From positions 62,001 to 126,000 of the forward strand of contig NZ_FNJC01000003.1 of assembly GCF_900104305.1 (NCBI RefSeq): DNA of 64,000 nt. The letters are read 5' to 3'. Shown one piece after another: positions 40,763-62,883 of this stretch. The stretch comes from Filomicrobium insigne. Lineage in GTDB: Bacteria > Pseudomonadota > Alphaproteobacteria > Rhizobiales > Hyphomicrobiaceae. The position numbers and the translations under genes were made by a program. Below the pieces are notes generated by a model, which worked only from the letters and a program-made list of their open reading frames with translations, had not been told where the DNA came from and searched no databases. Position 1 is the stretch's first letter, and each line of letters opens with the position of its first letter.

Positions 40763-41044
40763 TTAAGGACCTTCAACGGTACAAGGCCGCATCCGCCATA
40801 GTCCGCTGAGGACAAGCGCCAGGAACCCTGCGATGCCTGCGCCTACGGCCAACACCACCGATAAGCTTAAATAAATGTCGTGCAGATGGGCCACGAACAA
40901 GTAGGCGGCGGTCCAGAACTTTGCAGGGATAAGGCAAACTAAAAAGAGCCCAAGCGTGGGATTGGCCCGGCGCAGAAGCAGGTTATCGACTCTCGCCGTT
41001 TTGCCGGAACGGTTATCGAGTACAACACCGGCGGATCGCCCCAT
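40763..41044 (-). CDS. Small two-helix membrane protein
   Basis: A 93-residue protein with two hydrophobic helices (about 32-52, GLFLVCLIPAKFWTAAYLF, and 58-82, LSLSVVLAVGAGIAGFLALVL) and a basic N terminus. GAGGAAG lies eight bases before the ATG. No family recognised. Confidence 0.65.
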   Translation of the reverse strand: MGRSAGVVLDNRSGKTARVDNLLLRRANPTLGLFLVCLIPAKFWTAAYLFVAHLHDIYLSLSVVLAVGAGIAGFLALVLSGLWRMRPCTVEGP

Positions 41045-41257
41045 GGCCGCTTCCTCGCAACAGATGAGCCCTTACAAAACTGTATGGGCCTGCAACGTGC
41101 AATCAGGTTGTTAACGCAGCGATAATAAAATCACCCATTCTGGTGACAAATTGGACCAGATAACGCCGTTTACGTCCTAAGAGTTCCGATTGATGCGGCG
41201 CGAAATATAGTGGGCGTGAGTTCGCTTTTGGAAAGGCCTCCTCTTTAGGGACGGGAT

Positions 41258-44968: not shown

Positions 44969-44994
44969 GGAACACGATGCGTTATTGGCGCGTT
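44969..44994 (+). promoter_or_regulatory. EcfG-type general stress promoter before the ATP-grasp cluster
   Basis: GGAAC at 44969-44973 and CGTT at 44991-44994, with a 17-base spacer, match the EcfG consensus exactly. It lies 129 bases upstream of the first ATP-grasp start in an AT-rich gap with no other gene. Confidence 0.7.
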
Positions 44995-45066
44995 GTCTGC
45001 TTATATATTCAGCACATCGCCCAAAAGACTATCGTTGCGGCTAACGATTGCCTGGGTGATACTGCG

Positions 45067-45079
45067 ATTGCTTAGCAAT
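45067..45079. promoter_or_regulatory. Palindrome in the ATP-grasp leader
   Basis: The perfect palindrome ATTGCT-T-AGCAAT lies between the EcfG-type promoter and the ATG at 45124, 44 bases upstream of it. It could be an operator for an unknown regulator. Confidence 0.35.
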
Positions 45080-45123
45080 AAGACAGCTAATGCTCTCCAC
45101 AGGCTCAAGCTACAGAGCAATCG

Positions 45124-46605
45124 ATGGCAACAATTGCAGCCTTGACGGATCCGACCCAGCCAGCACCCTTCGATAATTATGATCCAAGGGGTCACTATTG
45201 CGAACTCCTCGGCACGAAACTGGAACCCGGAAGCAGCGCCATAGGCATCTGGCAGCGTCTTCAGTCTCTCGGCCTCGACGCGTTGCAAACGCGAGCCGCT
45301 GAAGCGGCTAATGAACTCTTCAATTTAGGTATTACATTCACCGTCTATACCGAGCGCACGGCGATAGACCGTATTCTTCCCTTCGACGTGATCCCCCGTA
45401 TCATTCCGGCCAATGAGTGGGACCTGTTGGAAAAGGGAATTCAGCAGCGGGTGAAAGCGCTGAATCTCTTTTTATGGGACGTCTACCACGAACGGAAAAT
45501 CCTTCGCGATGGCGTCATTCCAGCCAATCTCGTTTTGAAGAATGCCAATTACCGCGAAGAAATGATTGGCCTCGATCCGCCATGCGGCACTTACATCCAC
45601 ATTAACGGCACAGATATTATTCGTGACGCCAATGGAGAGTTTCTGGTCCTTGAGGACAATGGCCGCGCGCCTTCTGGCGTCTCATACGTCGTAGAAAACC
45701 GCCACTTGATGCAGCGGGCCTTCCCCGATCTCATGCAGGGGTTGAAGGTGCGTTCGGTCTCCGACTATGGCGAACGCCTCCATCACAAGCTGGCGGAAGT
45801 CGCGCCAGAGGGTGTGACTGATCCCACGGTCGTTCTTCTGTCGCCGGGAGTCTACAACTCGGCGTACTTCGAACACATCTTCCTCGCGCGCGAAATGGGC
45901 GTCCCGCTCATCGAGGGCCGTGACCTGATCGTCGAGAACGATCGCGTCTTTATGAAAACCGTTGCCGGATTAGAGCCGGTCCATGTCATCTATCGTCGTC
46001 TAAATGACGATTTCCTCGATCCAGAGGCATTCAATCCCGAGAGCATGCTTGGGGCCGCGGGGCTCATGCGCGCGGCGCGCCGTGGTAATGTCACGCTCGC
46101 CAATGCCGTCGGAACTGGCGTTGCGGACGACAAGGCGGTTTATGCTTATGTGCCGCGCATTATCCAGTACTACCTCAACGAAGAGCCGATCCTCGGGAAC
46201 GTTGAGACACACATCTGCGCGGAGAAGGAAGGGCTATCCTATACGCTCGCCAACTTGGACAAGCTGGTGGTTAAGCCGGTCGGTGAATCGGGAGGCTACG
46301 GTATCGTCGTTGGTCCGAAGGCGACACGAGCCGAGCTCGACGAGGCCCGCGAGGGCATCCTGCGCGATCCGGCGAACTTCATCGCGCAACCAATGATAGA
46401 CCTCTCCGTCTGCCCCACCCTGACCGAACACGGTTTGCGCCCACGACATGTCGATCTGCGGCCCTATGCGATTACGGGACGTGACACCTGGGTGCTTCCC
46501 GGCGGCCTGACCCGAGTGGCGTTGAAGGAAGGGTCAATCATCGTCAATTCATCGCAAGGCGGCGGCACGAAGGATACGTGGGTGTTGAAGGAGGCGTGTA
46601 AGTGA
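45124..46605 (+). CDS. Circularly permuted type 2 ATP-grasp protein
   Basis: A 493-residue predicted amide- or peptide-bond-forming ligase. Blocks of the family are complete: WDVYHERKILRDG, YIHINGTDIIRD, the acidic VLEDNGRAPSGVSYVVENR, LLSPGVYNSAYFEH, the ATP-binding VVKPVGESGGYGIVVGP and PGGLTRVAL with SSQGGGTKDTWVL. It is coupled to the alpha-E gene by a GTGA overlap. Comparative genomics predicts synthesis of an unknown peptide by this set. An EcfG-type promoter lies upstream. The ribosome site is weak. Confidence 0.93.
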   Translation: MATIAALTDPTQPAPFDNYDPRGHYCELLGTKLEPGSSAIGIWQRLQSLGLDALQTRAAEAANELFNLGITFTVYTERTAIDRILPFDVIPRIIPANEWDLLEKGIQQRVKALNLFLWDVYHERKILRDGVIPANLVLKNANYREEMIGLDPPCGTYIHINGTDIIRDANGEFLVLEDNGRAPSGVSYVVENRHLMQRAFPDLMQGLKVRSVSDYGERLHHKLAEVAPEGVTDPTVVLLSPGVYNSAYFEHIFLAREMGVPLIEGRDLIVENDRVFMKTVAGLEPVHVIYRRLNDDFLDPEAFNPESMLGAAGLMRAARRGNVTLANAVGTGVADDKAVYAYVPRIIQYYLNEEPILGNVETHICAEKEGLSYTLANLDKLVVKPVGESGGYGIVVGPKATRAELDEAREGILRDPANFIAQPMIDLSVCPTLTEHGLRPRHVDLRPYAITGRDTWVLPGGLTRVALKEGSIIVNSSQGGGTKDTWVLKEACK

Positions 46606-47645
46606 GTCTGCTGGCGCGCTACGCAGAGCACTTGTTCTGGATGGCCCGTTATATGGAGCGGGCTGACAGTCTCGCCCGAATTATTGAAACGCATGCGGCC
46701 TACGATCGAGGGCGCGAGTCCGAGACGTCGTGGAAGTGGCTCGTGCAGCTCTACGCAGATGACGAGGAGTTCGAGGAAAAATACACCGACGCATCTCAGC
46801 GTAACGTCCTGCATTTTTATATCCGAGACCTGGACCATCCAGGTTCGATTTTGTCGGCTATAAAGGCGGCGCGGGAGAACGCGCGCGCACTCCGGGCCTA
46901 TCTGCCGACAGAGATGTGGTCGCAGCTCAACGAGTTCTACAATCGCATCATGCTGACAGGCGAAGCGGAAATCGACATCGTGCACCTCTCGCGCACGTGT
47001 GGCATGATCAAGAGCGGTTGCCAGGCTCAGTTTGGTATCGCCGACAGCACGCTTTATCGCGATGAAGGCTGGCGCTTCTACGGCCTGGGCCAATTTCTTG
47101 AACGTGCCGACCAGACGAGCCGGCTGCTCGATGTGAAGTTCGCACAGCTCGCTGCCGAAGAGTCTCCGCAAGACCGCATCGCCGACACGACATTTTGGGC
47201 ATTGGTTTTGCGCTCGGCGTCCGCGTATCAGGCATTCCAGAGGATCGAAGCCTGCCGCGTCGACCCGGATCGCATCGCTGTCTTCTTACTTCTCAACCCA
47301 AGCCATCCGCGCTCCGTTTCCTTCTGCACCCATCAGATGGAACGCCTGCTGCACGAACTACGTATGCGGTGTCGATTGGCGAGGACAGGACGTGCGTTGC
47401 ATCATCTCGATGAATTGACGGCATACCTGCAGGTGGCTCAGCAGCATGCCGATCTGGTCGGGAACCTGCATGCCTTCAACGACGGCCTTCAGCGGCGCCT
47501 CAACGCAATTGCCGATGAATTGGGGGCGACGTTCTTCGGATACGCACCGCATCAACCAATCGTCCAGACACCAGAGCCGGGAATGCCTGTGATCGGAAAT
47601 GTGACGCAGAGCCAAAGTCAGAGCCAAGGCTCGGCGCCCTCCTAA
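46602..47645 (+). CDS. Alpha-E domain protein
   Basis: A 347-residue all-helical protein of the alpha-E (DUF403) family, starting with the typical LLARYAEHLFWMARYMERADSLARIIETH. Internal blocks RACGMIKS-like RTCGMIKSGCQAQFGIADSTLYRDEGWRFYGLGQFLERADQTSRLLD are well conserved. The biochemical role is unknown; it always accompanies this ATP-grasp type. GTG start overlaps the ATP-grasp stop, so the two are made together. The C terminus is Gln/Ser-rich. Confidence 0.92.
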   Translation: MSLLARYAEHLFWMARYMERADSLARIIETHAAYDRGRESETSWKWLVQLYADDEEFEEKYTDASQRNVLHFYIRDLDHPGSILSAIKAARENARALRAYLPTEMWSQLNEFYNRIMLTGEAEIDIVHLSRTCGMIKSGCQAQFGIADSTLYRDEGWRFYGLGQFLERADQTSRLLDVKFAQLAAEESPQDRIADTTFWALVLRSASAYQAFQRIEACRVDPDRIAVFLLLNPSHPRSVSFCTHQMERLLHELRMRCRLARTGRALHHLDELTAYLQVAQQHADLVGNLHAFNDGLQRRLNAIADELGATFFGYAPHQPIVQTPEPGMPVIGNVTQSQSQSQGSAPS

Positions 47646-47699
47646 GCACGCTCCCCCGACCGAAATGTCTTCGTTGCTGCAACCTCATCATCGGTCTCC

Positions 47700-50600
47700 A
47701 TGCTTCATGTCGCACTGACTCACCGGACCACATATCGCTACGACCGGACAATCAACATGGGCCCGCAGATTATCCGTCTGCGTCCTGCCCCACATTGTCG
47801 AACACCGATTTTGAGCTACTCGCTCACATTGTCCCCGAAGTCGCATTGGCTCAATTGGCAACAGGATCCGTTCGGTAATTTCCTGGCCCGGGTCGTGTTG
47901 CCGGAACCGACGGATGAGTTCTCGGTAACGGTTGATCTGATCGCCGATATGGCCGTCATCAATCCGTTCGACTTCTTCATCGAAGAGAGCGCGGCGGAAT
48001 GGCCGTTTGCCTACGATCCGGCTCTGCAAAGAGAACTTCAGCCCTACCTGTTGCCGGAAGAGATGGGCCCCGAGCTGAAGGCTTACCTTGCGACCATCGA
48101 TCGTTCTGCGAAAACGACGATCGATTTTGTCTGCGACCTGAACCGCCAACTGCAATCCGCCGTGCGGTATCTGATCCGGATGGAGCCAGGCGTCCAGACG
48201 CCGGAGACAACGCTGACCAACGCCTCCGGCTCGTGCCGGGATAGCGCCTGGCTGCTTGTTCAGATCCTGAGAAATCTCGGATTGGCGGCGCGCTTCGTCT
48301 CTGGCTACCTGATCCAGCTGAAGCCGGATGTGAAAGCCCTCGAGGGGCCATCCGGGGCCGAAACGGATTTCACGGATCTGCATGCCTGGGCCGAAGTTTA
48401 CGTTCCGGGCGCTGGGTGGATCGGCCTCGACCCGACGTCCGGCCTCTTAGCCGGAGAAGGCCATATTCCGCTAGCCGCGACACCGCATCCCGTGAGCGCG
48501 GCGCCCATTACAGGCGCGCATGAAAAAGCCGAAGTCGAGTTCGACTTCGAAATGGCCGTAACACGCGTGCGCGAAACGCCGCGCGTGACAAAGCCATACG
48601 ACGATGCTCAGTGGCAAGACATCGTGAATGCAGGTCGCGCCGTCGATGTGCTGTTGAGCAAAGGCGACGTGCGCTTGTCGATGGGCGGTGAACCGACATT
48701 CGTCGCTGTCGACGACATGGATGGCGCCGAATGGAATACGGCGGCAGTCGGACCGACCAAACGGCGGTACGCAGAGGATCTTGTGCGTCGTCTGCGCGAC
48801 CGCTTTGCGCCGGGCGGCCTGCTGCACTACGGTCAGGGCAAATGGTATCCTGGTGAAGAGCTTCCGCGTTGGTCCTTCTCGATTTATTGGCGCGCTGATC
48901 AGGAACCGCTTTGGACCGATGACGCGCTCATAGCTCCCGAGGCGCAAGAGGGGCCACCACCCACAAAGCTGGACGCGGAAAAATTCACGAAAGCGTTGTG
49001 CGATGAACTGGGCTTGCCCGACGATAGCGGGATTCCCGCATACGAGGATGTCGCTCACTTCATGCTCATTGAGCAGAAGTTACCGATCAACCTGACACCG
49101 GAAGACAACAAGCTCGAAAATGAAGCCGACCGCGCCCGTCTTATCCGGGTATTTGAGCGCGGGCTAGGAGCTCCGGTGGGCTATGTTTTACCTATTCAGG
49201 CGTGGCAGACGCACGACCGCGGCCGGCGTTGGGTCACCGAACGCTGGGCGCTACGGTGGGACAAACTTTTCCTCACGCCGGGCGACTCCCCGATCGGATT
49301 CCGGTTGCCTTTAGCCTCGCTGAACTACGCAGCCCCCGTCGACTACCCACAAGTCATCCCTCGCGATCCGCAAGTGCCCCGCGAGCCGCTGCCGCAACGG
49401 CAAGTGCTTTTGCAGCGTCGACGCACAGTGACGCTTACGGCGCAACAGCCCGTGACAGCACCGGAGAAGGATGAAATTTATGGTGCCGTGCGCACGGCCC
49501 TTGCCGTCGAGCCGCGAGATGGCCGCGTATGTGTATTCATGCCTCCGCTTGAGGACGCTGAAGACTATGCTGCCCTCGCAGGTGCGATTGAGGGAGCGGC
49601 TGGAAAAACGGGAGTAAAGGTCCACATCGAGGGGTATTCCCCACCTCACGATAGCCGATTGAACGAAATCAAGGTCACGCCGGACCCCGGCGTCATTGAG
49701 GTCAACACGCAGCCGGTGAGTTCCTGGGCGGAGGCTCTCAAAGTGACGGAGGGGCTATATGAAGATGCACATCAGTGCTGGCTCGGTACAGAGAAGTTCA
49801 TGCTCGACGGCCGGCATACGGGTACGGGGGGCGGCAATCACATCGTGTTGGGTGGGCTGACGCCCGCCGACAGTCCATTCTTGCGCCGGCCGGATCTGTT
49901 GGCGAGCCTTGTCGCCTATTGGCAGAACCATCCCTCACTGTCCTATCTATTCTCCGGGATGTTCATCGGCCCCACCTCCCAGGCTCCGCGTGTTGATGAA
50001 GCGCGGCACGAAAGTCTGTACGAGCTGGAAATCGCGCTTGCCCAGGTGCCGGGCCCCGGGGAGGGGCACCTGCCACCCTGGCTCGTCGACCGTATCTTTA
50101 GAAACCTGCTCATCGATGTAACGGGCAACACCCATCGTGCCGAAATCTGCATCGATAAGCTGTATTCGCCCGATGGCCCGACCGGTCGCCTGGGCCTCGT
50201 GGAATTTCGATCGTTTGAAATGCCGCCGCACCCGCGCATGAGCTTGGCGCAACAACTACTTCTGCGGGCGCTCATCGCGTGGTTCTGGGAAACGCCTTAT
50301 CGTCGGCCTCTCGTCCGTTGGGGCACGTCACTCCATGATTGTTTCATGCTGCCTCACTTCGTGTGGTCGGATTTTGCGGATGTTGTGGCTGATTTGCGAG
50401 CCGCGGGCCTTCCCATCGAGCTATCCTGGTTCGAGCCCCACTTTGAGTTCCGTTTCCCGCGCTATGGCCAGGTTGCGACCCACGGATTGACGGTTGAGTT
50501 ACGCCAGGCGCTCGAACCCTGGCACGTTATGGGAGAGGAAGGTGCTGTCGGCGGCACCGCGCGTTACGTCGACTCCTCGCTTGAGCGTGTCCAGATCAAG

Positions 50601-50996
50601 GTCACAGGGCAGTCGGACAACCGCTTTGAAATCACCTGCAATGGGGTGAAGCTCCCCCTTACCAAAACGGGTGGTGCGGGCGAAGCGGTCGCAGGGATAC
50701 GTTACCGGGCGTGGCAGCCACCCTCATGCCTCCATCCCACGATTGGACCACACGTGCCCTTGACCATCGACATCTACGACACCTGGAGCGGCCGTGCCGT
50801 AGCCGGATGTCGCTATCATGTGTCGCATCCAGGCGGCCGCAATTTCGAAAACTTTCCGGTCAATGCGTTTGAGGCGGAGGGACGGCGGTTGGCCAGATTC
50901 GAGGGGAATGGCCACACGGCAGGAGCCACCACGCCGATCAATCCTCCCAGAAATCCGGACTATCCGGTCACCCTGGACCTGCGTCTTGTGCGCTAA
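47700..50996 (+). CDS. Transglutaminase-like protein fused to DUF2126
   Basis: A 1098-residue protein. Residues 1-90 are the bacterial transglutaminase N domain (HRTTYRYDRTINMGPQIIRLRP), 150-260 the core with triad Cys179 (GSCRDSAWLL), His228 (DLHAWAEV) and Asp244 (GLDPTSGL). Residues about 300-1098 are DUF2126, including VRLSMGGEPTFVA, VEVNTQPVSSWAE-like EVNTQPVSSW, GGGNHIVLGG and EFRSFEMPPHPRMS; this part has been suggested to be a glutamine-synthetase-like ligase (from memory). A protease or transferase plus ligase in one chain. Gap of 54 bases after alpha-E. Confidence 0.92.
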   Translation: MLHVALTHRTTYRYDRTINMGPQIIRLRPAPHCRTPILSYSLTLSPKSHWLNWQQDPFGNFLARVVLPEPTDEFSVTVDLIADMAVINPFDFFIEESAAEWPFAYDPALQRELQPYLLPEEMGPELKAYLATIDRSAKTTIDFVCDLNRQLQSAVRYLIRMEPGVQTPETTLTNASGSCRDSAWLLVQILRNLGLAARFVSGYLIQLKPDVKALEGPSGAETDFTDLHAWAEVYVPGAGWIGLDPTSGLLAGEGHIPLAATPHPVSAAPITGAHEKAEVEFDFEMAVTRVRETPRVTKPYDDAQWQDIVNAGRAVDVLLSKGDVRLSMGGEPTFVAVDDMDGAEWNTAAVGPTKRRYAEDLVRRLRDRFAPGGLLHYGQGKWYPGEELPRWSFSIYWRADQEPLWTDDALIAPEAQEGPPPTKLDAEKFTKALCDELGLPDDSGIPAYEDVAHFMLIEQKLPINLTPEDNKLENEADRARLIRVFERGLGAPVGYVLPIQAWQTHDRGRRWVTERWALRWDKLFLTPGDSPIGFRLPLASLNYAAPVDYPQVIPRDPQVPREPLPQRQVLLQRRRTVTLTAQQPVTAPEKDEIYGAVRTALAVEPRDGRVCVFMPPLEDAEDYAALAGAIEGAAGKTGVKVHIEGYSPPHDSRLNEIKVTPDPGVIEVNTQPVSSWAEALKVTEGLYEDAHQCWLGTEKFMLDGRHTGTGGGNHIVLGGLTPADSPFLRRPDLLASLVAYWQNHPSLSYLFSGMFIGPTSQAPRVDEARHESLYELEIALAQVPGPGEGHLPPWLVDRIFRNLLIDVTGNTHRAEICIDKLYSPDGPTGRLGLVEFRSFEMPPHPRMSLAQQLLLRALIAWFWETPYRRPLVRWGTSLHDCFMLPHFVWSDFADVVADLRAAGLPIELSWFEPHFEFRFPRYGQVATHGLTVELRQALEPWHVMGEEGAVGGTARYVDSSLERVQIKVTGQSDNRFEITCNGVKLPLTKTGGAGEAVAGIRYRAWQPPSCLHPTIGPHVPLTIDIYDTWSGRAVAGCRYHVSHPGGRNFENFPVNAFEAEGRRLARFEGNGHTAGATTPINPPRNPDYPVTLDLRLVR

Positions 50997-51236
50997 TTCG
51001 ACCCGTATGAGCATAAATCTACGCCGAATCTGCCGAAACATAGGCCAAGTGTATTCATTTGGTCACGTTGATTGGCAAAGCAGCCTCCTATAATCGGACA
51101 GCTTGGGGCGAGTCGTCGGTAAGTAGAAGCCAGCCGAAAGCACGTTTCTTGAAAGACATGGCGCGAACTCAAAAGGACGCGCAATGTATTCCCTACGTGA
51201 CCATGAGTACCTGCGGTGACCTGGAGCACCGAATAG

Positions 51237-53780
51237 ATGACGATGAGTGCACAGCAAGCCTTGCCCCCTAGTGGGAGCTTGTTAGCCGGTTACCGGCCCA
51301 TCGCAGGCGTTCGTGATGAACTGCTCGATGAGCACGGCCGGCTCCGGGCTCATTGGGCTGATGTGCTAGAAGCTCTTGAAGGTCTCGGTGATCACGAGCG
51401 GCATCAGCGCTCTGACCGTCTTAACCATCGCGTTCGCGAACTCGGCATAGCGAATGATATCTACGCTGACCCGAGCAACACCGAACAACCCTGGCATCTG
51501 GATCTCATTCCGCTGATCATTTCTCCCGCTGAGTGGCGTTGGCTTGAAGCGGCGATGATCCAGCGCGCGCGCCTGATGGACGAGATCCTCAAGGACGTCT
51601 ACGGTGAACAAAACCTCATGCGGCGCAACCTTTTGCCGCCATCTCTCGTATTCTCCGACCCGGCGTTTCTGCGCCCTTGCGTTGGTATAAAACCGACAGG
51701 CTCCCCCCTTCAATTTTACGCAGCGGATATCGCACGCGGCGCGGACGGCATGTGGCGGATCATAGATAGCCATGCCGAAACGATGGCCGGCATCGGCTTC
51801 GCACTAGCCAATCGCGTTGTGCTGACCCAGGTCGCTGGCGACCTGTCTAAAACCGCAAATATCATGCGCCTGTCGTCGTTTTTCAGCGACATGCAGGCCA
51901 GCCTCTTCGCACGGTCGGAAAGACCTGATCCCCGCATTGCACTGCTGACGTCAGGGCCGACGAATAGCGATTATTTCTCGCACGCCTACATCGCTCGATA
52001 TCTTGGGTGCCTCCTTGTTGAGGGAGGCGACCTCAGTGTGGTGAACGAGCGTCTGTACTTGAAGACGCTTGAGGGATTGAAGGCCATCGATCAAGTGGTG
52101 CGCTGCACCGAGGCGGCCTCGTCTGATCCGCTCGAATTGAACCCCAGCGATTTCGGCGGCCCGGTAGGGTTGGTTCAAGCTGCCCAATACAACCCGGATT
52201 TGATCGTCAACGCTCTGGGATCAGCGATCGTCGAAAACCGTGGTTTGAGCGGTTACCTTCCGAGACTGTGCCAGGAACTGCTCGGCGAACCCCTGACGTT
52301 AGGAGATGCGCCGCGTTATTGGCTGGGTGATGCGGAGGCCCGCGAGCAAGTGCTGCGGAATCCGGACAAATGGATTTTCCGCGCCGCGCACGAAGGAACA
52401 GGACGACCGGGCCGTGCAACAGCGGGCCGCATTCTTTCCGCACTCGATTCCGGGACGACCGAGTCGCTCCGCACAGAGGTTGAACTGTTCGGTCAGTCCA
52501 TGGTCGCGGAAGCACCCGTAGGGTTCGCAACGACACCCTCGCTGGGAGAGAACGGTCTGCATCCCGTGCCGTACGCCGTTCGCATATTCGTCAGCGCGAC
52601 TGAGGACGGGTATCGGGTGATGCCCGGTGGCATTGCGATGACCGTGGAGACCCAATCCGTCGCGCTGAGCGCCCCCTCTGCATTGACCCGAGACGTCTGG
52701 ATCAGTTCCGATACCCGTAGCCGCCCGCACACGAGCTTGTGGCGTCCGGCAATAGAAACAGCCACCGTAGATCGGTCGCAGCGCGCGCTGCAAAGCCGCG
52801 TCGCCGACAACCTATTTTGGCTGGGACGTTACGCCGAACGGACGGATTGGATTATGCGAGCGCTGCGGAGTGCTCTGGAGCGGCTTGATCAGGATGTGGG
52901 GGCTTCGCCTGACGGACCGCGAGCGGCACGGCGCTGTTTGTCCAGTTTGATTGCGCGCGACAGCGACGTGGACCTGCCGGGGCCTGAAGTATCCGACATC
53001 GATGCGTTGAACTGGATGATCGGCCAGCTGCTCTGCAATGACACCCACGTCTGCGGCCTCATCCAAACCGTCGAGGCACTTCATCGGACACTCGGACATA
53101 TTCGGGATCGGCTATCACTCGAAGCATGGCGCACGCTCAGACGGCTTCGCGCAGCGGATTTGCGTGGCGTCGCACGTATCGACGCGCTGGAATGGCTTGA
53201 AGATGGGCTGACCTCCATTGCCGCGTTTAATGGCCTGGTCCACGAGAACATGACACGCAACTTCGGTTGGGCTTTCCTCGATATGGGAAGGCGGCTGGAG
53301 CGCGCTTACAATCTCTCAGAAGCGATCGATGCCCTGATCGTGAAAAGCGAAGAACATTCCTCCGCGGAATTGGTTCTTTTGCTTGAACTGGGCGATAGCT
53401 TTATGACGTATCGCTCCCGTTATCGTCTCGAGCCAATGCTGCATCTTGTGCTAGATTTATTGTGCCTCGACGAAGCAAATCCGCGGAGCATAGCGTTCCA
53501 GCTCGCTGCTATTTCAAACCATCTCGAGCACCTGCCCAAGGGGCGGCTCGGAAATACCCTTTCGGAGGAGCGGCGTCTGGTGCTGGGGCTGCGGACTTCG
53601 GTCCAGCTCGCGCAGGCCGAATTGCTGGCCGACAAGAGTGGCGATAGCCAGCTCCGGGATGTTCTAACCGAACAAATGGACAAGCTTCCGCGATTGTCCG
53701 ATGCCATAATGCGTAGTTATTTTAATCCGAGCGACGAGCGTCCAAGTCGTGTGTTCACACGGTTAGAGCCCACTCAATGA
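51237..53780 (+). CDS. ATP-grasp and alpha-E fusion protein
   Basis: An 847-residue protein: a permuted ATP-grasp region (about 60-500) and an alpha-E region from about 520 (RVADNLFWLGRYAERTDWIMRALRSALERL). It duplicates the two previous single-domain genes in one chain. The ATP-grasp half has diverged: the acidic block of the separate enzyme (LEDNGRAPSG) reads IIDSHAETMAG here and the Lys of VVKPVGESGG reads FRAAHEGTG, so ligase activity may be altered or lost. The stop overlaps the next start by four bases (ATGA). Confidence 0.92.
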   Translation: MTMSAQQALPPSGSLLAGYRPIAGVRDELLDEHGRLRAHWADVLEALEGLGDHERHQRSDRLNHRVRELGIANDIYADPSNTEQPWHLDLIPLIISPAEWRWLEAAMIQRARLMDEILKDVYGEQNLMRRNLLPPSLVFSDPAFLRPCVGIKPTGSPLQFYAADIARGADGMWRIIDSHAETMAGIGFALANRVVLTQVAGDLSKTANIMRLSSFFSDMQASLFARSERPDPRIALLTSGPTNSDYFSHAYIARYLGCLLVEGGDLSVVNERLYLKTLEGLKAIDQVVRCTEAASSDPLELNPSDFGGPVGLVQAAQYNPDLIVNALGSAIVENRGLSGYLPRLCQELLGEPLTLGDAPRYWLGDAEAREQVLRNPDKWIFRAAHEGTGRPGRATAGRILSALDSGTTESLRTEVELFGQSMVAEAPVGFATTPSLGENGLHPVPYAVRIFVSATEDGYRVMPGGIAMTVETQSVALSAPSALTRDVWISSDTRSRPHTSLWRPAIETATVDRSQRALQSRVADNLFWLGRYAERTDWIMRALRSALERLDQDVGASPDGPRAARRCLSSLIARDSDVDLPGPEVSDIDALNWMIGQLLCNDTHVCGLIQTVEALHRTLGHIRDRLSLEAWRTLRRLRAADLRGVARIDALEWLEDGLTSIAAFNGLVHENMTRNFGWAFLDMGRRLERAYNLSEAIDALIVKSEEHSSAELVLLLELGDSFMTYRSRYRLEPMLHLVLDLLCLDEANPRSIAFQLAAISNHLEHLPKGRLGNTLSEERRLVLGLRTSVQLAQAELLADKSGDSQLRDVLTEQMDKLPRLSDAIMRSYFNPSDERPSRVFTRLEPTQ

Positions 53781-54652
53781 AGTTCGACGTCAGTCACAAG
53801 ACTGTCTACAATTATTCAGCAATGGTCTCCCACTCCAGCCATTGCGTGCACCTGACGCCCCGCCCTATCGCCCGTCAGACTGTCGAGCGTCACAGTCTGA
53901 TGATCGAGCCGGCGCCGACGACCCGCATCGATAGGATTGATTACTTCGGCAATCCTGTCTCGATCCTTAGCATCGACGGGGCGCATTCCGAATTCGTCGT
54001 CCATGCCCGTTCTACGATCGTCGCAGAACCTCCAGAGCCCGTTGATCCAGAAGCGACTTGCGCGTGGGAAGATGTGCAGCAACGCGTGACGACAGGGAAC
54101 GGCGACTTGGACCTTGATGTGATCCAGTACTTGTCACCGTCGCGGCTGACGCAGCCAATACCGGCGATTCTGACTTATGCGCGCCCGTCGTTTCCGGAGC
54201 GGCGGCCAGCCATCGCGGCAGCCTGGGATCTTGCGCAACGCATTTTTCAAGACTTCAAGTTCGACGCGACCGCCACGGATCTCTCTACGCCGCTCAGTGA
54301 AGTCCTGCGGAACCGCCGCGGTGTTTGTCAGGATTTCTCGCATCTTATGCTGTCTTGCTTGCGCGCGATGCATCTCCCGGCACGCTACGTGAGCGGTTAC
54401 ATATTGACGAAGCCACCTGAAGGGGGCGAGCGGTTGCAGGGTGCCGATGCCTCCCATGCATGGGTGTCGATTTGGGCGCCGGAATGCGGTTGGGTCGATA
54501 TGGATCCGACCAACAAGATCATGCCAGGCGAGGAGCACATCACCATCGCCTATGGCCGTGACTATGATGATGTATGTCCGATCAGTGGCGTCCTGTTGGG
54601 CGGACGCGAGCACGGGGTACGTGTCGCCGTTGACGTCGTACCCACTAGCTAG
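53777..54652 (+). CDS. Transglutaminase-like cysteine peptidase family protein
   Basis: A 291-residue protein with the bacterial transglutaminase N domain (VSHKTVYNYSAMVSHSSHCVHLTPRP) and the core triad Cys184 (RGVCQDFSHL), His227 (ADASHAWVSI) and Asp243 (DMDPTNKI). All catalytic residues are present. No signal peptide, so cytoplasmic. It is coupled to the ATP-grasp/alpha-E fusion and completes the second set. Its stop overlaps the stop of the convergent metallopeptidase gene. Confidence 0.93.
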   Translation: MKFDVSHKTVYNYSAMVSHSSHCVHLTPRPIARQTVERHSLMIEPAPTTRIDRIDYFGNPVSILSIDGAHSEFVVHARSTIVAEPPEPVDPEATCAWEDVQQRVTTGNGDLDLDVIQYLSPSRLTQPIPAILTYARPSFPERRPAIAAAWDLAQRIFQDFKFDATATDLSTPLSEVLRNRRGVCQDFSHLMLSCLRAMHLPARYVSGYILTKPPEGGERLQGADASHAWVSIWAPECGWVDMDPTNKIMPGEEHITIAYGRDYDDVCPISGVLLGGREHGVRVAVDVVPTS

Positions 54653-55737
54653 TGATTGGAAAGGTTAGGCAGAACCTTTTGCTCACCATGCCAGCCGCTT
54701 GCCCGGCGGACGGCCCGCTCTTTTCCCACAGCTTGCACCAAGCCGTGAACAAAGGCCATTTTCTCCAGCGCCGCTGACGGGTTGACGAAAGGATAGAAAT
54801 CCTGATGCCCCATGCTGCGACTGAGGCTGTTGAGCGCCAGTGTCAGAGGCACCCACCGTTCAATGAGAGCATCGAAGGCTTCTGCTGAATAGCTGTCAAA
54901 CCTATTGGCGGAATCTTGATCGTTCGCGAGCGTAATGCCATTTGCCTCGGCGGTGTCGACAGCGTCGATTATGTGCAGATAATGCGCCCAGGTCTCTGCC
55001 CAGTCTTCCCACGGATGTGAACTGGCGTACGCCGACACATAGCTGGATTGCCAGTCAGTCGGCGGACCTGCCGCATGATACTGTGAGAGCGCGCGCTCAT
55101 AGTCGATGCGCTCATCTCCAAACAAGCGCCTGAACTTATCGATGTGCGGCGTACGGTCGACAAGAATTGTCCAGTAGTAATGGCCGCTTTCATGCCGGAG
55201 GTGACCGAGAAGGGACCGATAGGGTTCAGCAAATAGCTGACGCGCACGCTCACGCTCCACGGCATCGGCTTCCGCCAGGTTGACGGTAATCAAGCCATCT
55301 GCATGGCCCGTCATCGCCCCGCTGACAAAATCGAACTTCAATCCGGGTTTGCCATCGATCTCCTCGTCGAAGGGAAGGGAGAGCCGCATCAAAGCATAGA
55401 TAAGCCGCTTCTTGGCATCCTCGAGAGCTGCCCATGCGGCGGTGCTACCGTTATCGGAAAGGTTAGGAATGGTTCTGTTGAGGTCACATGCTCGGCATAG
55501 ACCGCTTAAGTCCCCCCTCCGCATCAGCCAATTACACACGCCATGCTGTGAATTGCTGCAATAATGAACCCTGAGGGGCTGCTCACCGATCGTTTCCAAC
55601 TCATTATCTGGCGTGGGCTGCAGCGCGGACATCGTCAGCCGCTCGGGGAGAAAACCAAGCGGGCTACCGCACCGCACACAATGCACGTTCTGAAAATAAA
55701 CGATGTGCCCGCAATTCGAGCAGTTGAATTTCTGCAT
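54649..55737 (-). CDS. Zinc-ribbon metallopeptidase family protein
   Basis: A 362-residue soluble protein. The N terminus has zinc-ribbon Cys pairs (C6/C9, C20/C23) and a second set (C60, C68, C81/C84). A metallopeptidase motif HESGH (182-186, in GHLRHESGHYYW) is followed by WEDWAETWAHY (243-253), whose Glu could be the third zinc ligand. The family is often found with ATP-grasp/alpha-E/transglutaminase genes; here it is convergent with them, with a four-base overlap of stops. Likely cuts a peptide, substrate unknown. Confidence 0.9.
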   Translation of the reverse strand: MQKFNCSNCGHIVYFQNVHCVRCGSPLGFLPERLTMSALQPTPDNELETIGEQPLRVHYCSNSQHGVCNWLMRRGDLSGLCRACDLNRTIPNLSDNGSTAAWAALEDAKKRLIYALMRLSLPFDEEIDGKPGLKFDFVSGAMTGHADGLITVNLAEADAVERERARQLFAEPYRSLLGHLRHESGHYYWTILVDRTPHIDKFRRLFGDERIDYERALSQYHAAGPPTDWQSSYVSAYASSHPWEDWAETWAHYLHIIDAVDTAEANGITLANDQDSANRFDSYSAEAFDALIERWVPLTLALNSLSRSMGHQDFYPFVNPSAALEKMAFVHGLVQAVGKERAVRRASGWHGEQKVLPNLSNH

Positions 55738-55851
55738 GGAACAACGATACCCTAATGTCGGGTAACCCCGGTTGAGTTGAAGAAAACCGTCCTGAATAAC
55801 GTACGAGCAATCTGATGGGTTGCGCCGCCTGCTTCAAAAGCGAATGAGGTC

Positions 55852-56994: not shown

Positions 56995-57167
56995 CGAACG
57001 GGGGCTCTTATGAGCGAATCCTAGCGACGTCAGCAACGTGAAATTGAAAACAAAACACATAAAAATCAAAATGTTATATAGATCACATGTAATCGTAAAT
57101 TAGCAATTTGTAAACCGAGGTGCATCTACCGTCCGTCACTGTTCCCGACACAGATGGTGGTAACGCG

Positions 57168-58112
57168 ATGGCTACATTGCAGGCGGCTGACTATTCCGCC
57201 CGGTGCATCCCCCGACTGTTCCATGAGATCGTCGAAGGCAGTGTCGATGCCGTCGTCGTTGCTAATGAGGGTCACACGATCGGCTACGTCAACGCGGCGG
57301 CCGAAACATTGTTTGGTTATAGGCGCGAAGAACTCGTGGGGCAGCCGCTGGATATGCTCATCCCTCGCGCTGACCGGCGACACCGTCGACACTTGATCGA
57401 GCGCCTGAGTGCGTCTCCCACATCCAGATTTCTGTATTCAGACCATCATCATACGTTTTACGCGCTGAGGGCGAGCGGAGAAGCCTTCCCAGTCGAGATT
57501 TCTATCCTCAAGACGAAGGATGAATTGGGAGTGCGTTTCATCGCGTTCGTCCGCGACCTCACCAGACAGAAAGAGCTTGAGGCGAGCCTTGAGCGTCTCG
57601 CGAGCACGGACCCATTGACCGGGACACGCAATCGTCGTGCATTCTTGGAGGAAGCTCGGAAGGAACGTTTGCGCTGGAGGCGCTTTGGCGAGCCGCTGTC
57701 CTTGGCAATGATCGACCTGGATTGTTTCAAGAGCATCAACGACCGATTTGGTCACGTCTATGGAGATCAGGCGCTCAAACATTTTGTCACGACCGTCAAC
57801 AGTACAATCCGGGAAGTCGACATCTTCGGGCGTTGGGGTGGGGAAGAGTTTGCGTTGCTTTTGCCCGCGACATGCCTGCGTAATGCAGCAGTCGTTGCAG
57901 AGCGCATCAGAGCGCGCGTACAGGCAGCAACACCGCCGCGAGAGCCCCGTTGCGCCTCCGGATGTGCACAGATAACGGCGAGTATTGGTGTCTCAACCTT
58001 TGTAAGTGATCAGGACACGATCGAAAGCATCATAAACCGTGCCGACCGTATGCTCTATATGGCCAAATCGTCAGGCAGAAATTGCGTCTGCCTTGATACC
58101 CGTGGCGATTGA
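57168..58112 (+). CDS. PAS-GGDEF diguanylate cyclase
   Basis: A 314-residue cytoplasmic protein: PAS domain (about 25-140; VDAVVVANEGHTIGYVNAAAETLFGYRREELVG), then a GGDEF domain (about 155-310) with TDPLTGTRNRRAF and the active-site RWGGEEFALLLP. Four residues match an inhibitory I-site (REVD, five residues before GGEEF), so product inhibition by c-di-GMP is likely. Start is uncertain: ATG 57168 was chosen over GTG 57120. The region upstream (57040-57115) is very AT-rich and probably holds the promoter. Confidence 0.9.
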   Translation: MATLQAADYSARCIPRLFHEIVEGSVDAVVVANEGHTIGYVNAAAETLFGYRREELVGQPLDMLIPRADRRHRRHLIERLSASPTSRFLYSDHHHTFYALRASGEAFPVEISILKTKDELGVRFIAFVRDLTRQKELEASLERLASTDPLTGTRNRRAFLEEARKERLRWRRFGEPLSLAMIDLDCFKSINDRFGHVYGDQALKHFVTTVNSTIREVDIFGRWGGEEFALLLPATCLRNAAVVAERIRARVQAATPPREPRCASGCAQITASIGVSTFVSDQDTIESIINRADRMLYMAKSSGRNCVCLDTRGD

Positions 58113-58295
58113 TCACTAGCCTCTGGTAAAATCCGACTCCGAGTACGATCTAAACTCCGTATGCATAGTTTGATTGCGGAGGGGGCGAGCGCCGTCAAAA
58201 TTTGATCGTCGCGACGCTGGGACCGGATTGGTGTACGCCAAGTCGAAGGCAGAGGAAATGTTCGCCGGGACGCCGGCGTGGAGAAGGAGACAGCT

Positions 58296-58733
58296 ATGTA
58301 CAAACATATTTTGGTGGCAACGGATGGATCGGAGCCGGCCGAGCGCGCGATGCGCGATGGCTTTCAACTGGCGAAACTGCTGGGCGCTAAGGTCTCGGCC
58401 ATAACCGTCTCAAGGCCGTGGCAGGCCGTAGCGCCAGGCGAGCTTATGGTGGCATTCCCGGAAGAGGAATACATGCAAGGTATTCAGCAACTCGCGGAAG
58501 AGAATTTGAAGAAGGTCACGGAGGCGGCGGCGGCAGCGGGTGTGACGTGCGAAACGATGCACGTCATTAATGATCAAGTCTATCAAGCGATCATCGATGC
58601 GGCTGAAAAGAATGGTTGCGATTTGCTCGTGTTAGGGTCACACGGCCGCACCGGACTAGCCCAGTTATTTTTAGGCAGCGAAACACAAAAAGTTCTGGCG
58701 CACACAAAAATTCCTGTCCTAGTCCATCGCTAA
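58296..58733 (+). CDS. Universal stress protein (UspA family)
   Basis: A 145-residue cytoplasmic protein with the Usp fold: N-terminal [19 protein letters not shown] and the ATP-binding [15 protein letters not shown] (Gx2Gx9GS) near the C terminus, so it is of the ATP-binding class. AAGGAG lies six bases before the ATG at 58296. A palindromic TCAAA-A-TTTGA lies about 90 bases upstream. It neighbours several genes with EcfG-type promoters, but none is seen directly before this one. Confidence 0.93.
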
Positions 58734-58757
58734 CCGGTGGTGCGTGCCAAAGTGTGT

Positions 58758-58782
58758 GGAACGGAAGTAGTGATATCGCGTT
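58758..58782 (+). promoter_or_regulatory. EcfG-type general stress promoter before DUF1328
   Basis: GGAAC at 58758-58762 and CGTT at 58779-58782, spacer 16 bases, match the EcfG consensus exactly, 37 bases before the DUF1328 start. Confidence 0.75.
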
Positions 58783-58819
58783 TCCGATCTACAGACTACG
58801 CAACAACGGAGAGTGGATC

Positions 58820-58999
58820 ATGCTTGGTTGGGCCGTCCTATTCCTAGTGATTGCGCTGGTCGCAGCAGCACTTGGATTTGGTGGAGTAGCTGCAGTATCA
58901 GTGGAAATCGCGCAAATCGTCTTTTGGGTTTTTATCGTTCTGTTCGTCATTTCTCTGATATACGGGCTGATAAGTGGGCGACGTCCACCAGCTGTCTGA
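58820..58999 (+). CDS. DUF1328 small membrane protein
   Basis: A 59-residue inner-membrane protein with two hydrophobic helices ([20 protein letters not shown] and [21 protein letters not shown]). Matches the DUF1328/YtjA family, which is often induced by stress. GGAG lies before the ATG at 58820. An EcfG-type promoter sits immediately upstream and a strong terminator downstream, so it is a single-gene unit. Confidence 0.9.
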
Positions 59000-59012
59000 C
59001 GAAAAGAATGTG

Positions 59013-59042
59013 CCGGGCGTGTCGCATGCGCCCGGTTTTTTT
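59013..59042 (+). terminator. Rho-independent terminator of DUF1328
   Basis: Perfect 7-bp stem CCGGGCG/CGCCCGG, 9-base loop, followed by seven T; 13 bases after the stop. Confidence 0.92.
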
Positions 59043-59130
59043 ATGTTGAATCCAATAATTCCTGAAATTCATTCCAGGCTAAGAACATCCTGAAACTTTG
59101 AGACGGCACAGAGGTTGAGCAGTGGCTCCC

Positions 59131-60630
59131 TCATGTTTCAACGTGCGCCATGCTCACATCGATTTTGCAAACGACGCCTTCCGGTAGATAGTTGATGACA
59201 GCATTTCCATCGAGGGCTCGCGCTAGGATCCGCTCAGTCATCGTCTGCCCGAAACCGGGTGGAGAGGTCGGAGGGGACACTTCCGGTCCATCCTTTTCTT
59301 GCCACGTAATTTTGAGCGTATTCGGATCATCCGCTGGATCGAGTGTCCAGAAGACATTGATTTGCCCCTTGGTATCGGAAAGCGCCCCGAATCGTTGCGC
59401 GTTGCGGGCAAGTTCGTGCAGGGCAAGGCCCAGGTTCTGCGCGGGTTCTGTTCTTATGCGCACACTAGGTCCCTCAAGATGGAGTCTCCTCTCCGCGCCA
59501 TCCAGGTAGGGTTTTATTTGTGTGCGAACGAGTTCATCCAAGGGAATGGCGCGCCAGTCGTGCTCCACGAGGAGGTCCTGACTGCCCACCAATGCGCGAA
59601 GACGCGCATCGAATGATGCCAAGAATTCGCTTAGAGACTTTGACCGTTGCGCTGTTTGTCGCGCGATGCCGAGCAAAATCGTAAGTGTGTTTTTGGACCG
59701 GTGAGACATTTCACGCAAAACGCTACGTAAACGCTCTTCGCGTTCCTTCTGCTCAGTGACTTCCACCGCAATGGAAAGGATACCCGCGATCGACCCATCC
59801 TCATTGTGATAGGGCTCCGCGGTCAAATCGAAGTAGCGCAACTGATGGCCGTTCTGGACGATGACCTGACCGCGTTCTTCTTCGCCGGTATCGATAACTC
59901 TCTGTTTGAGAGACATCGTTTCCTCAGAAGTCTTGTTTGGCAGGATTTCGTCATCGGTCCGCCCCAGCATGTACTGAGCGTCAAAACCTGACGGAGCATT
60001 ACGTATCCAGACGTAACGCAGACTAAGATCCTGCATCGATACCGTGATGTTTGTATCGCGCAGCGCTATTTCGAGCCGTTTTTTCGCTTCGTAGACCTCG
60101 CGGGACCGTACCGCAACTCTCTCCTCCAAATCCTTCCGTGTTTCGCGAAGTTTTTCGAGCGTGCGGCGGTGTGCGGCAACGCGATGTTCAAGGTCGGCGC
60201 GGGACGGCATCTCGATAGCCGCACTGATCAGCAAGCACACAGCAATGGCGGCAAAAGGAGCCACGATAGCCGCACTGATCCACGCAAATTCCGCGATCTC
60301 GCTTTCTACGAGCCCATCGGGAAACAAGGGTGACAGATAGGTCGTAAGCCAGTGCGAGGTCGAAGGGAGCAGCAACGCAACGCCAGTCAGGAATGCAAAC
60401 ACGATCCCCAACGCCACACCCCACCACCCCGAGGGAGATAGCTCACTCAGCCGCTTTATCAGAAGGATGCTTCCAATGGCCATCACAATAAGCGCTGCGC
60501 CCACCATGGCTTGAGCTGCGATTGCGATGCCGGTTTCTGGCTCCAATTCGTTACCTGCGACTAGATATAAAAAGTTTGGGATGAAAACGGCGAGCGGACC
60601 ATATCCGGACGCCCAACATGAAGACGTCAA
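59131..60630 (-). CDS. PAS-domain HWE-family sensor histidine kinase
   Basis: A 499-residue membrane kinase. Four hydrophobic helices in the first 155 residues, a coiled coil (about 160-200), a PAS domain (about 205-305, SLRYVWIRNAPSGF, GRTDDEILP), phospho-acceptor His in REMSHRSKNTLTILLGIARQ and the HWE catalytic part GLALHELARNAQRFGALS with GFGQTMTERIL. HWE kinases commonly feed PhyR in the general stress response. The only start with support is TTG at 60630, 46 bases after an EcfG-type promoter; no ribosome site is clear. Confidence 0.87.
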   Translation of the reverse strand: MTSSCWASGYGPLAVFIPNFLYLVAGNELEPETGIAIAAQAMVGAALIVMAIGSILLIKRLSELSPSGWWGVALGIVFAFLTGVALLLPSTSHWLTTYLSPLFPDGLVESEIAEFAWISAAIVAPFAAIAVCLLISAAIEMPSRADLEHRVAAHRRTLEKLRETRKDLEERVAVRSREVYEAKKRLEIALRDTNITVSMQDLSLRYVWIRNAPSGFDAQYMLGRTDDEILPNKTSEETMSLKQRVIDTGEEERGQVIVQNGHQLRYFDLTAEPYHNEDGSIAGILSIAVEVTEQKEREERLRSVLREMSHRSKNTLTILLGIARQTAQRSKSLSEFLASFDARLRALVGSQDLLVEHDWRAIPLDELVRTQIKPYLDGAERRLHLEGPSVRIRTEPAQNLGLALHELARNAQRFGALSDTKGQINVFWTLDPADDPNTLKITWQEKDGPEVSPPTSPPGFGQTMTERILARALDGNAVINYLPEGVVCKIDVSMAHVET

Positions 60631-61000
60631 GGCGAAGCGAAAATTAGGGACAAGTGTGCACGCCGCCTATTCTTGAAACGTTCTTTAGCATGGCAGGTTC
60701 CCTATTCCTGTTCCTCTGAGAACTCCGGAAAGTAAACATCACGTACATATAATTGCGGGAGCAACTGATTCGGGTTGCCCGGCATAGTGATTTCTCGACG
60801 AGCATAGGCAGTCCACGGAACAAAAATGCGGGACGACATCTTCCTCATCCCTTACCACTCCGCAAGTACTTGGCCGTGAGAAGTCCCCTGCAGACGAGAT
60901 CACGCATCGAGGCGTCTCGGACAAGGTTAACGCGAGATCAGAAGAAGAGTTCCTTATCGTCGCGGATCGCAGGGTGAACTTGATTTCGCAGCGTGCCGGC
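60631..61000. other. Intergenic region between the two HWE kinase genes
   Basis: These 370 bases hold the EcfG-type promoter of the downstream kinase (60677-60701, minus strand). Beyond that I see no gene matching a family, no terminator with a T-run and no repeat. The last residues of the upstream kinase end at 61001. Confidence 0.55.
60677..60701 (-). promoter_or_regulatory. EcfG-type general stress promoter before the PAS-HWE kinase
   Basis: On the minus strand GGAAC (60701-60697) and CGTT (60680-60677), spacer 16 bases, match the EcfG consensus exactly, 46 bases before the TTG start. Confidence 0.75.
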
Positions 61001-62713
61001 TTAGTCGGGCAACGTAAGTTCGTCAGATTCATCCGCGCTTATGGCGGCAAGGGGGGCTGAAAATTCATAGCGTAAGCCCTCGGCGGCGAATGTGATTTTG
61101 GGCTGACTATCCGGTCCGTGCGCGAGTGATTGGCGCAAGAGCGTCTGCCCGAAGCCGCGGCGCGTAGGTTCATTGACGGGAGGCCCACCACTTTCCTGCC
61201 ACTCAAATCGGCAAACGGCGTTACGGCCACGTCCGACGACGTTCCAGCGGACACTGACGCGGCCAGTCGAGTTGGACATGGCTCCATATTTTACTGCGTT
61301 CGTCGCGAGCTCGTGCAGGATAAGCGCGAGTGTTTGCGCGGTGCCGGCGCTTAGCTGAACATCGGGACCGCTGACTATAGCGCGTGCACCAAAAGCCTCG
61401 AGCTCGGCCTGGACCAATTCGCGTAGAGGAGCGCCGGACCAGGATGAATCGAGAAGGAGCGTATGGGCGCGGGCGAGTGCGTGAAGGCGCTTTGAAAAGA
61501 CTTCGCGCGCCTCTTCGACATTGCGTCCGTCCGATAAGCTGCGGGTTGCAATAGATTGCACGACCGCGAGCGTGTTCTTGACCCGGTGCGCAAGCTCCCG
61601 CGTCATCAAAGACATACGTTCATTAGCTTCATCTGCCATTGCTTGGCGTTGCCCGATGGAGAGCACGAGGAATGAGAGGAGCGCGGTCGCCATCAAGCCA
61701 GCAGCTAGCAGTGTGTGGGCACCTGAATAATCAATTGATTGCTCGAACTCTGGTGTGGATTCAAAGCGCAGAAGCCAGTTTGCTCCGTACAGGTCGCGTG
61801 CAGCTTCAACACTGAACCGTGGCTTCGATCGCGCAGCGCTCATACCATCGGTAAGGTTTTCGGATTGATAGAGCTGTTTCGGATCGGCACCACCGGTGGC
61901 ATCGAAGATCGCTATACTCGTGAAGCGGTCGGGGCGCGGATATTGGCGCTCGACCACACTTTTCATTAGTTCTTTCACACGCAAGGGGCTGTAGATGAAC
62001 CCGCGCAGCGCCGCGCGCCGTTCTTCAACGGTACCGGTCGGCATGTTTTCGCGATAAAGCGGCAGGTAAAGTAGAAAGCCAGACGAACTGTCACTGTTCG
62101 CCTCTTTGGTTTGAAGGCTAGTAACATAACCGCTGGCCGCCGGTAATCCCGTGTCGCGCGCGCGTATCATCGCGGCTCTGCGGACAGGTTCTGACCACAT
62201 GTCGAAGCCGAGAACCTCCCGGTTCTGTACAAACGGTTCGACAAAGACGACCGCAGAATAGATGTCTCGATCTTCTTTGGGCTTCAGATCGTAACTTGGG
62301 AAGCCCTCGCCCCGGACGGCAGCGATATGCGCGTCCCTTTCGGTTCTCGTCAAAACGGCAGCAAAGCCGATGCCTTTGATCCCTGGAAAATTCTCAGTAA
62401 TCCGCAACGCTTCAACGTAGCGACGAAATTGAGTGCGGCTGACAGCCGGAAGGGTTTCGAAAAGGGCTTGTGTGCCCCGCAGCATATGCTCGTAAGCGGT
62501 TGTAGAACGCTCAATTTCCGCCATGAGGGCTTCGGTGCGTCCCTGAAAGACCTTTTCGGCTTGTTCCGTGACGCTGGAAACGCCAAAGCGCCAAGCTAGC
62601 GTCGTGGCCGTCAATCCGACCACGGCGACGATCATTACGGACCGTACCGTAGGCCGCATTGCTGCTCGCCAATCAGGAATATGGGATAGAAGCCGTCGAA
62701 AGGTCGGAAGCAT
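61001..62713 (-). CDS. CHASE-domain HWE-family sensor histidine kinase
   Basis: A 570-residue membrane kinase. A helix at about 26-44, then an extracytoplasmic CHASE domain (about 75-290; FPGIKGIGFAAVLTRTERDA, VVFVEPFVQNREVLGFDMW) and a second helix at about 325-345. Then the HWE kinase: acceptor His in RELAHRVKNTLAVVQSIATR, catalytic LILHELATNAVKYGAMS and RRGFGQTLLRQSL. CHASE domains bind small ligands. No response regulator is adjacent, so the partner is elsewhere; PhyR-type is plausible. Confidence 0.92.
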   Translation of the reverse strand: MLPTFRRLLSHIPDWRAAMRPTVRSVMIVAVVGLTATTLAWRFGVSSVTEQAEKVFQGRTEALMAEIERSTTAYEHMLRGTQALFETLPAVSRTQFRRYVEALRITENFPGIKGIGFAAVLTRTERDAHIAAVRGEGFPSYDLKPKEDRDIYSAVVFVEPFVQNREVLGFDMWSEPVRRAAMIRARDTGLPAASGYVTSLQTKEANSDSSSGFLLYLPLYRENMPTGTVEERRAALRGFIYSPLRVKELMKSVVERQYPRPDRFTSIAIFDATGGADPKQLYQSENLTDGMSAARSKPRFSVEAARDLYGANWLLRFESTPEFEQSIDYSGAHTLLAAGLMATALLSFLVLSIGQRQAMADEANERMSLMTRELAHRVKNTLAVVQSIATRSLSDGRNVEEAREVFSKRLHALARAHTLLLDSSWSGAPLRELVQAELEAFGARAIVSGPDVQLSAGTAQTLALILHELATNAVKYGAMSNSTGRVSVRWNVVGRGRNAVCRFEWQESGGPPVNEPTRRGFGQTLLRQSLAHGPDSQPKITFAAEGLRYEFSAPLAAISADESDELTLPD

Positions 62714-62858
62714 GCGGTATGATAACTGTCCTTATGCTGCTTTTTCGGCTGAGCTCGGGTGAAAGATCTATATGGCGCCAAACAATCGCATCGTGCGTGC
62801 GTCCCGTAAAGCTGTAGGCCGCCAACCGATGAATGTTGGCTCTTCGACCGCAACTAAG

Positions 62859-62883
62859 GGAACTCATGCATCGCACACGCGTT
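62859..62883 (+). promoter_or_regulatory. EcfG-type general stress promoter before trxC
   Basis: GGAAC at 62859-62863 and CGTT at 62880-62883, spacer 16 bases, match the EcfG consensus exactly, 88 bases before the trxC start. Confidence 0.75.

Follow-up and report, generated by a model that had tools for sequence, protein, structure and literature searches.

The 64-kb stretch of the Filomicrobium insigne genome analyzed here (the window; positions 62001 to 126000 of contig C8 in an assembly of 3.85 Mb and 10 contigs) carries the motif GGAAC-N16/17-CGTT in front of genes of quite different kinds: a cluster encoding ATP-grasp, alpha-E, and transglutaminase proteins, a gene for a small DUF1328 membrane protein, a gene for a sensor histidine kinase with PAS and HWE domains, and the thioredoxin gene trxC. 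This motif is identical to the published consensus for the sigma factor EcfG (PMC7083833, PMC4814048). The locus raises the question of whether these genes, as an earlier note had proposed, share one regulon. We consider promoters of the PhyR-NepR-EcfG stress response, including one for the ATP-grasp cluster, to be a likely overall explanation and hold it with good confidence.

EcfG-type motifs in the window

The four motifs that had been spotted by eye, at positions 44969 (plus strand, N17), 58758 (plus, N16), 60677 (minus, N16), and 62859 (plus, N16), are all exact and correctly placed. The list was incomplete, with three further exact matches at 41162, 60929, and 42152, all on the minus strand. 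The total of seven compares with a mean of 1.25 (standard deviation, 1.12; largest value, 4) in 100 dinucleotide-preserving shuffles of the window, none of which reached seven; the earlier estimate was about one chance match per 64 kb. Genes were called with a simple codon-statistics caller written for this analysis, and gene starts are approximate. By these calls only 14.7% of the window is intergenic, yet six of the seven matches are in gaps with a gene on the same strand at most 350 bp downstream, which agrees with the earlier description of sites in gaps that point at the next gene. The remaining match, 42152 (minus), is probably due to chance because it is located inside a gene for a flavin adenine dinucleotide (FAD) oxidoreductase.

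The N17 site at 44969 to 44994 (plus) is intergenic and lies 129 bp upstream of the ATP-grasp gene, which has the same orientation, with the caveat that an out-of-frame open reading frame (ORF) of 181 amino acids, not called as a gene, overlaps both the site and the preceding gene. The N16 sites at 58758 to 58782 (plus) and 60677 to 60701 (minus) lie 37 bp upstream of the start called for DUF1328 and 46 bp upstream of the PAS-HWE kinase gene, respectively, and a second exact site in the gap upstream of the kinase gene (60929 to 60953, minus) is 298 bp away from it. The N16 site at 62859 to 62883 (plus) is found 88 bp before the ATG of trxC (62972 to 63460, plus; NCBIfam NF008229, 149.7 bits against a cutoff of 125).

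Genome-wide counts and controls

A scan of the whole genome, which the earlier note had suggested, gave a divided answer. Exact N16/17 matches numbered 88, and the corresponding totals were 90 for N12/13, 94 for N19/20, 85 for N21/22, and 86 for the reversed pattern. The idea that the genome holds more copies of the motif than chance would provide was rejected, since 88 does not stand out from 85 to 94 at other spacers or from 86 for the reversed pattern. This count, equal to that of the control patterns, favors the explanation that the motifs are functionless chance matches. Their placement does not: 53 of the 88 are intergenic, compared with 12 of the 86 reversed matches (Fisher P = 1.6e-10) and 1 of 60 sampled matches with other spacers (the first 30 each at N19/20 and N21/22, out of 179). 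Promoter-like placement was found for 48 of the 88 and for 6 of the 86 reversed matches (Fisher P = 2.7e-12).

The same distinction is visible when the spacer is varied. In the contiguous 90 kb of C8:62001-152000, there are 10 matches for N16 (9 intergenic) and 4 for N17 (all 4 intergenic), whereas the mean over 32 other spacers (5 to 14 and 19 to 40) is 1.1 matches, of which 0.16 are intergenic. Equal motif density inside genes, named beforehand as the outcome that would speak against a regulon, was therefore not what we found; placement and the peak at N16/17 set the sites apart. The sites are also positioned around the regulator genes described below. Chance is refuted for the set by placement, and we assign this explanation a probability close to nil. 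The motifs spotted by eye in the window are very probably real promoters of the general stress response.

A separate observation concerns coding regions, where exact sites seem to be depleted: 35 nonintergenic matches were counted at N16/17, against approximately 88 expected from other spacers. The reference is the phase-matched N19/20 pattern, with 94 matches in all and 0 of 30 sampled ones intergenic. Such depletion could reflect selection against spurious stress promoters. The raw, unclassified totals of two other genomes of the same genus fit it (92 versus 99 in G001, 75 versus 78 in G008), and no depletion was seen in 80 loci from diverse genomes (L184 to L263).

Regulator locus and predicted regulon content

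The motifs in the window are assigned to EcfG because ecfG, nepR, and phyR are located just beyond its end. NepR (PF18557) has a single match in the whole genome, at C8:128928-129029. Beside it is the gene for an ECF sigma factor, ecfG (C8:128329-128904), 2.3 kb past the end of the window, and phyR (C8:129422-130222) is divergent from nepR-ecfG, so that the locus as a whole (C8:128329-130222) extends from 2.3 to 4.2 kb beyond the window. In a relaxed scan, nepR-ecfG was preceded by GGAAC-N16-CGTT and phyR by GGAAC-N16-GGTT. Published accounts of the general stress response in alphaproteobacteria describe this arrangement (PMC4814048, PMC7083833). The sites are also crowded around these genes, with 14 of the 88 no farther than 26 kb from nepR against 1.2 expected, a figure weakened by the fact that the interval was picked after the sites had been seen. 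In G001, the roughly 10 kb that flank nepR on each side contain 9 of 92 sites, where 0.4 were expected.

Alphaproteobacteria commonly have EcfG paralogues (PMC4814048, PMC3892343, PMC7083833), and the promoters might be read mainly by another ECF sigma factor of this kind instead of the product of C8:128329-128904. Against this, the motif is identical to the EcfG consensus, sites are found around and in front of nepR-ecfG and phyR, and the genome has its single NepR match at this locus. We regard a different sigma factor as very improbable.

Outside C8:62001-133000, 37 genes downstream of promoter-placed sites were listed, after one gene spanning two loci (C8:145704-146216) had been dropped, and Pfam searches covered 30 of the 37. 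Many of the genes downstream of the sites are classical stress genes. Promoter-placed sites stand before genes for a ferritin-family (Dps-like) protein, MdoG/OpgG, CsbD, an iron superoxide dismutase, Ku, an L,D-transpeptidase, DUF308, a Cu/Zn superoxide dismutase, a GT20 protein of the trehalose-phosphate synthase type, dodecin, cytochrome c, rhodanese, Hsp20, DUF892, a DUF883-like protein, a PRC-barrel protein, and another HWE kinase; 5 of the 30 had no Pfam match. Taken with the regulator locus, the consensus, the placement, and the spacer controls, these stress genes strongly support the part of the earlier proposal that concerns an EcfG regulon as such, and we consider the regulon as a whole to be highly probable. 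The other part, membership of the ATP-grasp cluster, is probable only.

HWE kinases and the recurring neighborhood

Two kinase genes near the regulator locus are candidates for its input. The PAS-HWE kinase (59131 to 60630, minus) matches PF07536 with 81 bits and also PF08448, and the CHASE-HWE kinase (61001 to 62713, minus) matches PF03924 with 198 bits and PF07536 with 89 bits; no exact EcfG site was found upstream of the latter. Their translations contain HRSKN and HRVKN, respectively, which conform to the HRxxN motif given for PhyR-activating kinases (PMC5898713). With the PhyR-activating kinases (Paks) of Sphingomonas melonis described there they share the HWE domain, HRxxN, and nearness to phyR, and they differ in their sensor regions, namely, a PAS domain behind a hydrophobic N terminus in one and a CHASE domain in the other. 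A PhyK model gave a match to the CHASE kinase alone, with 24.5 bits where the cutoff is 750, and a LOV-kinase model stayed below its cutoff for both.

The neighborhood was compared with stretches of four genomes of the same genus (G001, G003, G004, and G008). In G001 and G003 the order is HWE kinase, DUF1328, CHASE-HWE kinase, DUF1328, Dps, ecfG, phyR, CsbD, and PRC, with EcfG-type sites. Upstream of DUF1328, G001 carries an exact site and G003 a GGTT variant; upstream of the HWE kinase an exact site is present in G001, and none was seen in G003. Because this neighborhood recurs in two genomes, DUF1328 (58820 to 58999 from the called start, plus; PF07043, 51 bits within the ORF at 58616 to 58999) and the HWE kinase are better supported as members of the regulon. 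The G008 stretch contains ecfG, phyR, CsbD, PRC, and many sites. The neighborhood of kinases and DUF1328 was not seen in the G004 and G008 stretches, the kinases being absent from view in the latter, and trxC was not found in any of the four.

The ATP-grasp gene cluster and its probable promoter

The cluster behind the site at 44969 starts with a circularly permuted ATP-grasp ligase (45124 to 46605, plus; PF14403, 536 bits; PF04174, 498 bits), followed by an alpha-E domain protein (46602 to 47645, plus; PF04168, 270 bits) and a transglutaminase domain fused to DUF2126, a putative amidoligase (47700 to 50996, plus; PF09899, 1,318 bits; PF08379; PF01841). A second half comprises another circularly permuted ATP-grasp domain fused to alpha-E (51237 to 53780, plus; PF14403, 344 bits; PF04168, 222 bits) and a transglutaminase-like protein (53777 to 54652, plus; PF08379, PF01841). 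A relaxed scan showed the site at 44969 as the only EcfG-like one before the ligase and none in the 240-bp gap before the second half (50996 to 51237). The gene set had been called an uncharacterised peptide-synthesis system; this holds for its product, whereas the genes themselves form a known kind of amidoligase cluster. They share the adjacent circularly permuted ATP-grasp, alpha-E, and transglutaminase genes with the Anbu operon (Iyer et al. 2009, cited in PMC6376114), whose suggested roles, protein tagging among them, are experimentally unconfirmed (PMC6376114). In contrast to that operon, the cluster has the DUF2126 fusion, the second ATP-grasp/alpha-E fusion, and a promoter of the stress type rather than the nitrogen type. 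Anbu itself was not found, as the only PF00227 match in the genome is hslV beside hslU.

How far the site is conserved was examined in two samples of upstream regions. The first has 98 distinct regions, which are not independent of one another; 4 of them (this genome and 3 of 97 others) contain an exact site. All four have N16/17 spacers, no match was found at 18 other spacers, and 5 matches to the reversed pattern turned up across 20 spacers. The second sample is from the same order: of 86 genomes with a match, 75 were new, and the first 60 of these as listed were used. Exact N16 sites are present in 4 of its 60 regions and N17 sites in none, compared with 3 for 22 other spacers together and 8 for the reversed pattern, counted over 24 spacers and including 2 at N16/17. 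Of the four hits, two come from one genus, and at least one of the 60 (G094, without a site) already belonged to the first set. In G001 an exact site stands 190 bp upstream of the ligase gene. One pair of genomes retains the -35 and -10 elements while the spacer has diverged. We read the EcfG site at this cluster as pointing to sporadic recruitment and not to an ancestral trait.

The regulon may be real and the cluster nonetheless stand outside it, with the site at 44969 being a chance match or inactive and the genes answering to another signal, for example, nitrogen limitation. The EcfG site is missing before the ligase in most relatives, and a near match to a sigma54 promoter (at most one mismatch) precedes it in 7 of the 98 regions, where the reversed pattern gives 2 and shuffles about 1. 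The region studied here is not among these seven; no sigma54 promoter was found before its ATP-grasp gene at up to one mismatch. Related clusters in Burkholderia cenocepacia depend on NtrC and sigma54 (PMC5491218), and expression of Anbu, whose gene usually accompanies genes of this kind, is high under nitrogen starvation (PMC6376114). Further arguments against a cluster outside the regulon are that only one of the seven matches in the window is coding, that G001 has its own exact site before the ligase, and that exact sites upstream of the ligase concentrate at N16/17 in both samples. On balance we consider this alternative unlikely, and the cluster is probably a direct EcfG target.

Several observations weigh against a stress regulon of this composition. 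No exact site was found in 94 of the 98 and 56 of the 60 upstream regions, most genomes of the same genus included. Some of the relatives' sites overlap ORFs, with that of G036 inside an antisense ORF of 972 amino acids and those of G063, G117, and G081 overlapped by ORFs of 90 to 169 amino acids. The cluster is near the regulator genes here but away from them in G001 and G008. In the 11.5-kb stretch of G004, ecfG and phyR are present and GGAAC-N16/17-[CG]GTT was not found. Among the downstream genes genome-wide, those for a molybdopterin oxidoreductase, an HpcH/HpaI aldolase, and an NYN protein are less telling, and flanking bases did not significantly separate placed from coding sites (P = 0.07), and a score based on them was not used.

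Other searches around the ligase were negative. Six aligned upstream regions from the same family contained no conserved block, and the words enriched upstream of the ATP-grasp genes largely reflected GC-rich background. A scan for sigma70-like sites, whose total did not exceed that of shuffles, listed none on the plus strand between 44800 and 45124.

Further features of the window and the genome

The second ATP-grasp domain (51237 to 53780) and three relatives lack the residues E-D-N at 177 to 179 and K384, which are invariant in the family of the first and which we take to bind ATP or a metal. For lack of these residues, the domain may be catalytically degenerate. Convergent with the cluster is a gene for Peptidase_Mx, a putative zinc metallopeptidase (54649 to 55737, minus; PF15887, 319 bits), and the relaxed scan placed a near-consensus GCAAC-N17-CGTT (55798 to 55823, minus) 60 bp before it. 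In Sphingopyxis, GCAAC often serves as the -35 box (PMC7083833). The same scan found GCAAC-N16-CGTT at 20017 to 20041 (plus), 54 bp before a called gene at 20096 to 21679. The exact N17 site at 41162 to 41187 (minus), located in a gap, is 117 bp upstream of an ORF of 93 amino acids (40763 to 41044, minus) that has no Pfam match. An Rfam scan of the window at gathering thresholds found nothing.

Elsewhere in the genome, six exact EcfG sites, five of them promoter-placed, fall within 11 kb at C4:102800-113800. Four more are grouped within 5 kb at C9:34982-39775, three of them promoter-placed, before genes for DUF308, Cu/Zn superoxide dismutase, and the GT20 trehalose-phosphate synthase.

Proposed mechanism and implications

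Under stress, HWE-family kinases, for which the two in the window near the regulator genes are candidates, would phosphorylate PhyR. Phosphorylated PhyR would bind NepR and thereby release EcfG, and free EcfG would direct RNA polymerase to GGAAC-N16/17-CGTT. The predicted regulon includes nepR-ecfG, the ferritin-like Dps, CsbD, two superoxide dismutases, trehalose-phosphate synthase, Ku, DUF1328, trxC, and HWE kinases, and through the site at 44969 it would also take in the ATP-grasp/alpha-E/transglutaminase-DUF2126 cluster. Judging by its domains and promoter, the cluster may make or attach an amide-linked peptide in the stress response.

In its consensus, the divergence of nepR-ecfG from phyR, the EcfG-type promoters on both, and the stress genes, the system resembles those of Methylobacterium extorquens (PMC4814048), Sphingopyxis granuli (PMC7083833), and Sphingomonas melonis (PMC6599016). 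It differs from them in the probable membership of the ATP-grasp/alpha-E/transglutaminase cluster and in the crowding of sites around the regulators. The regulatory system is thus textbook knowledge; what is possibly new is the occasional recruitment into a stress regulon of a cluster reported elsewhere as nitrogen controlled. Among the open-licence papers listed we recognized no report of this cluster as an EcfG target, and we do not claim that none is in print. Tentatively, and at slightly less than even chances, we suggest that the EcfG response has repeatedly taken up the Anbu-less cluster across Hyphomicrobiales and that its product, an amide-linked peptide or protein modification, is stress protective, unlike those of its nitrogen-controlled relatives. 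A motif first seen by eye has in this way led to a regulon that can be tested and whose regulator genes have been located, and general stress becomes the condition under which the product of the amidoligase cluster may be sought.

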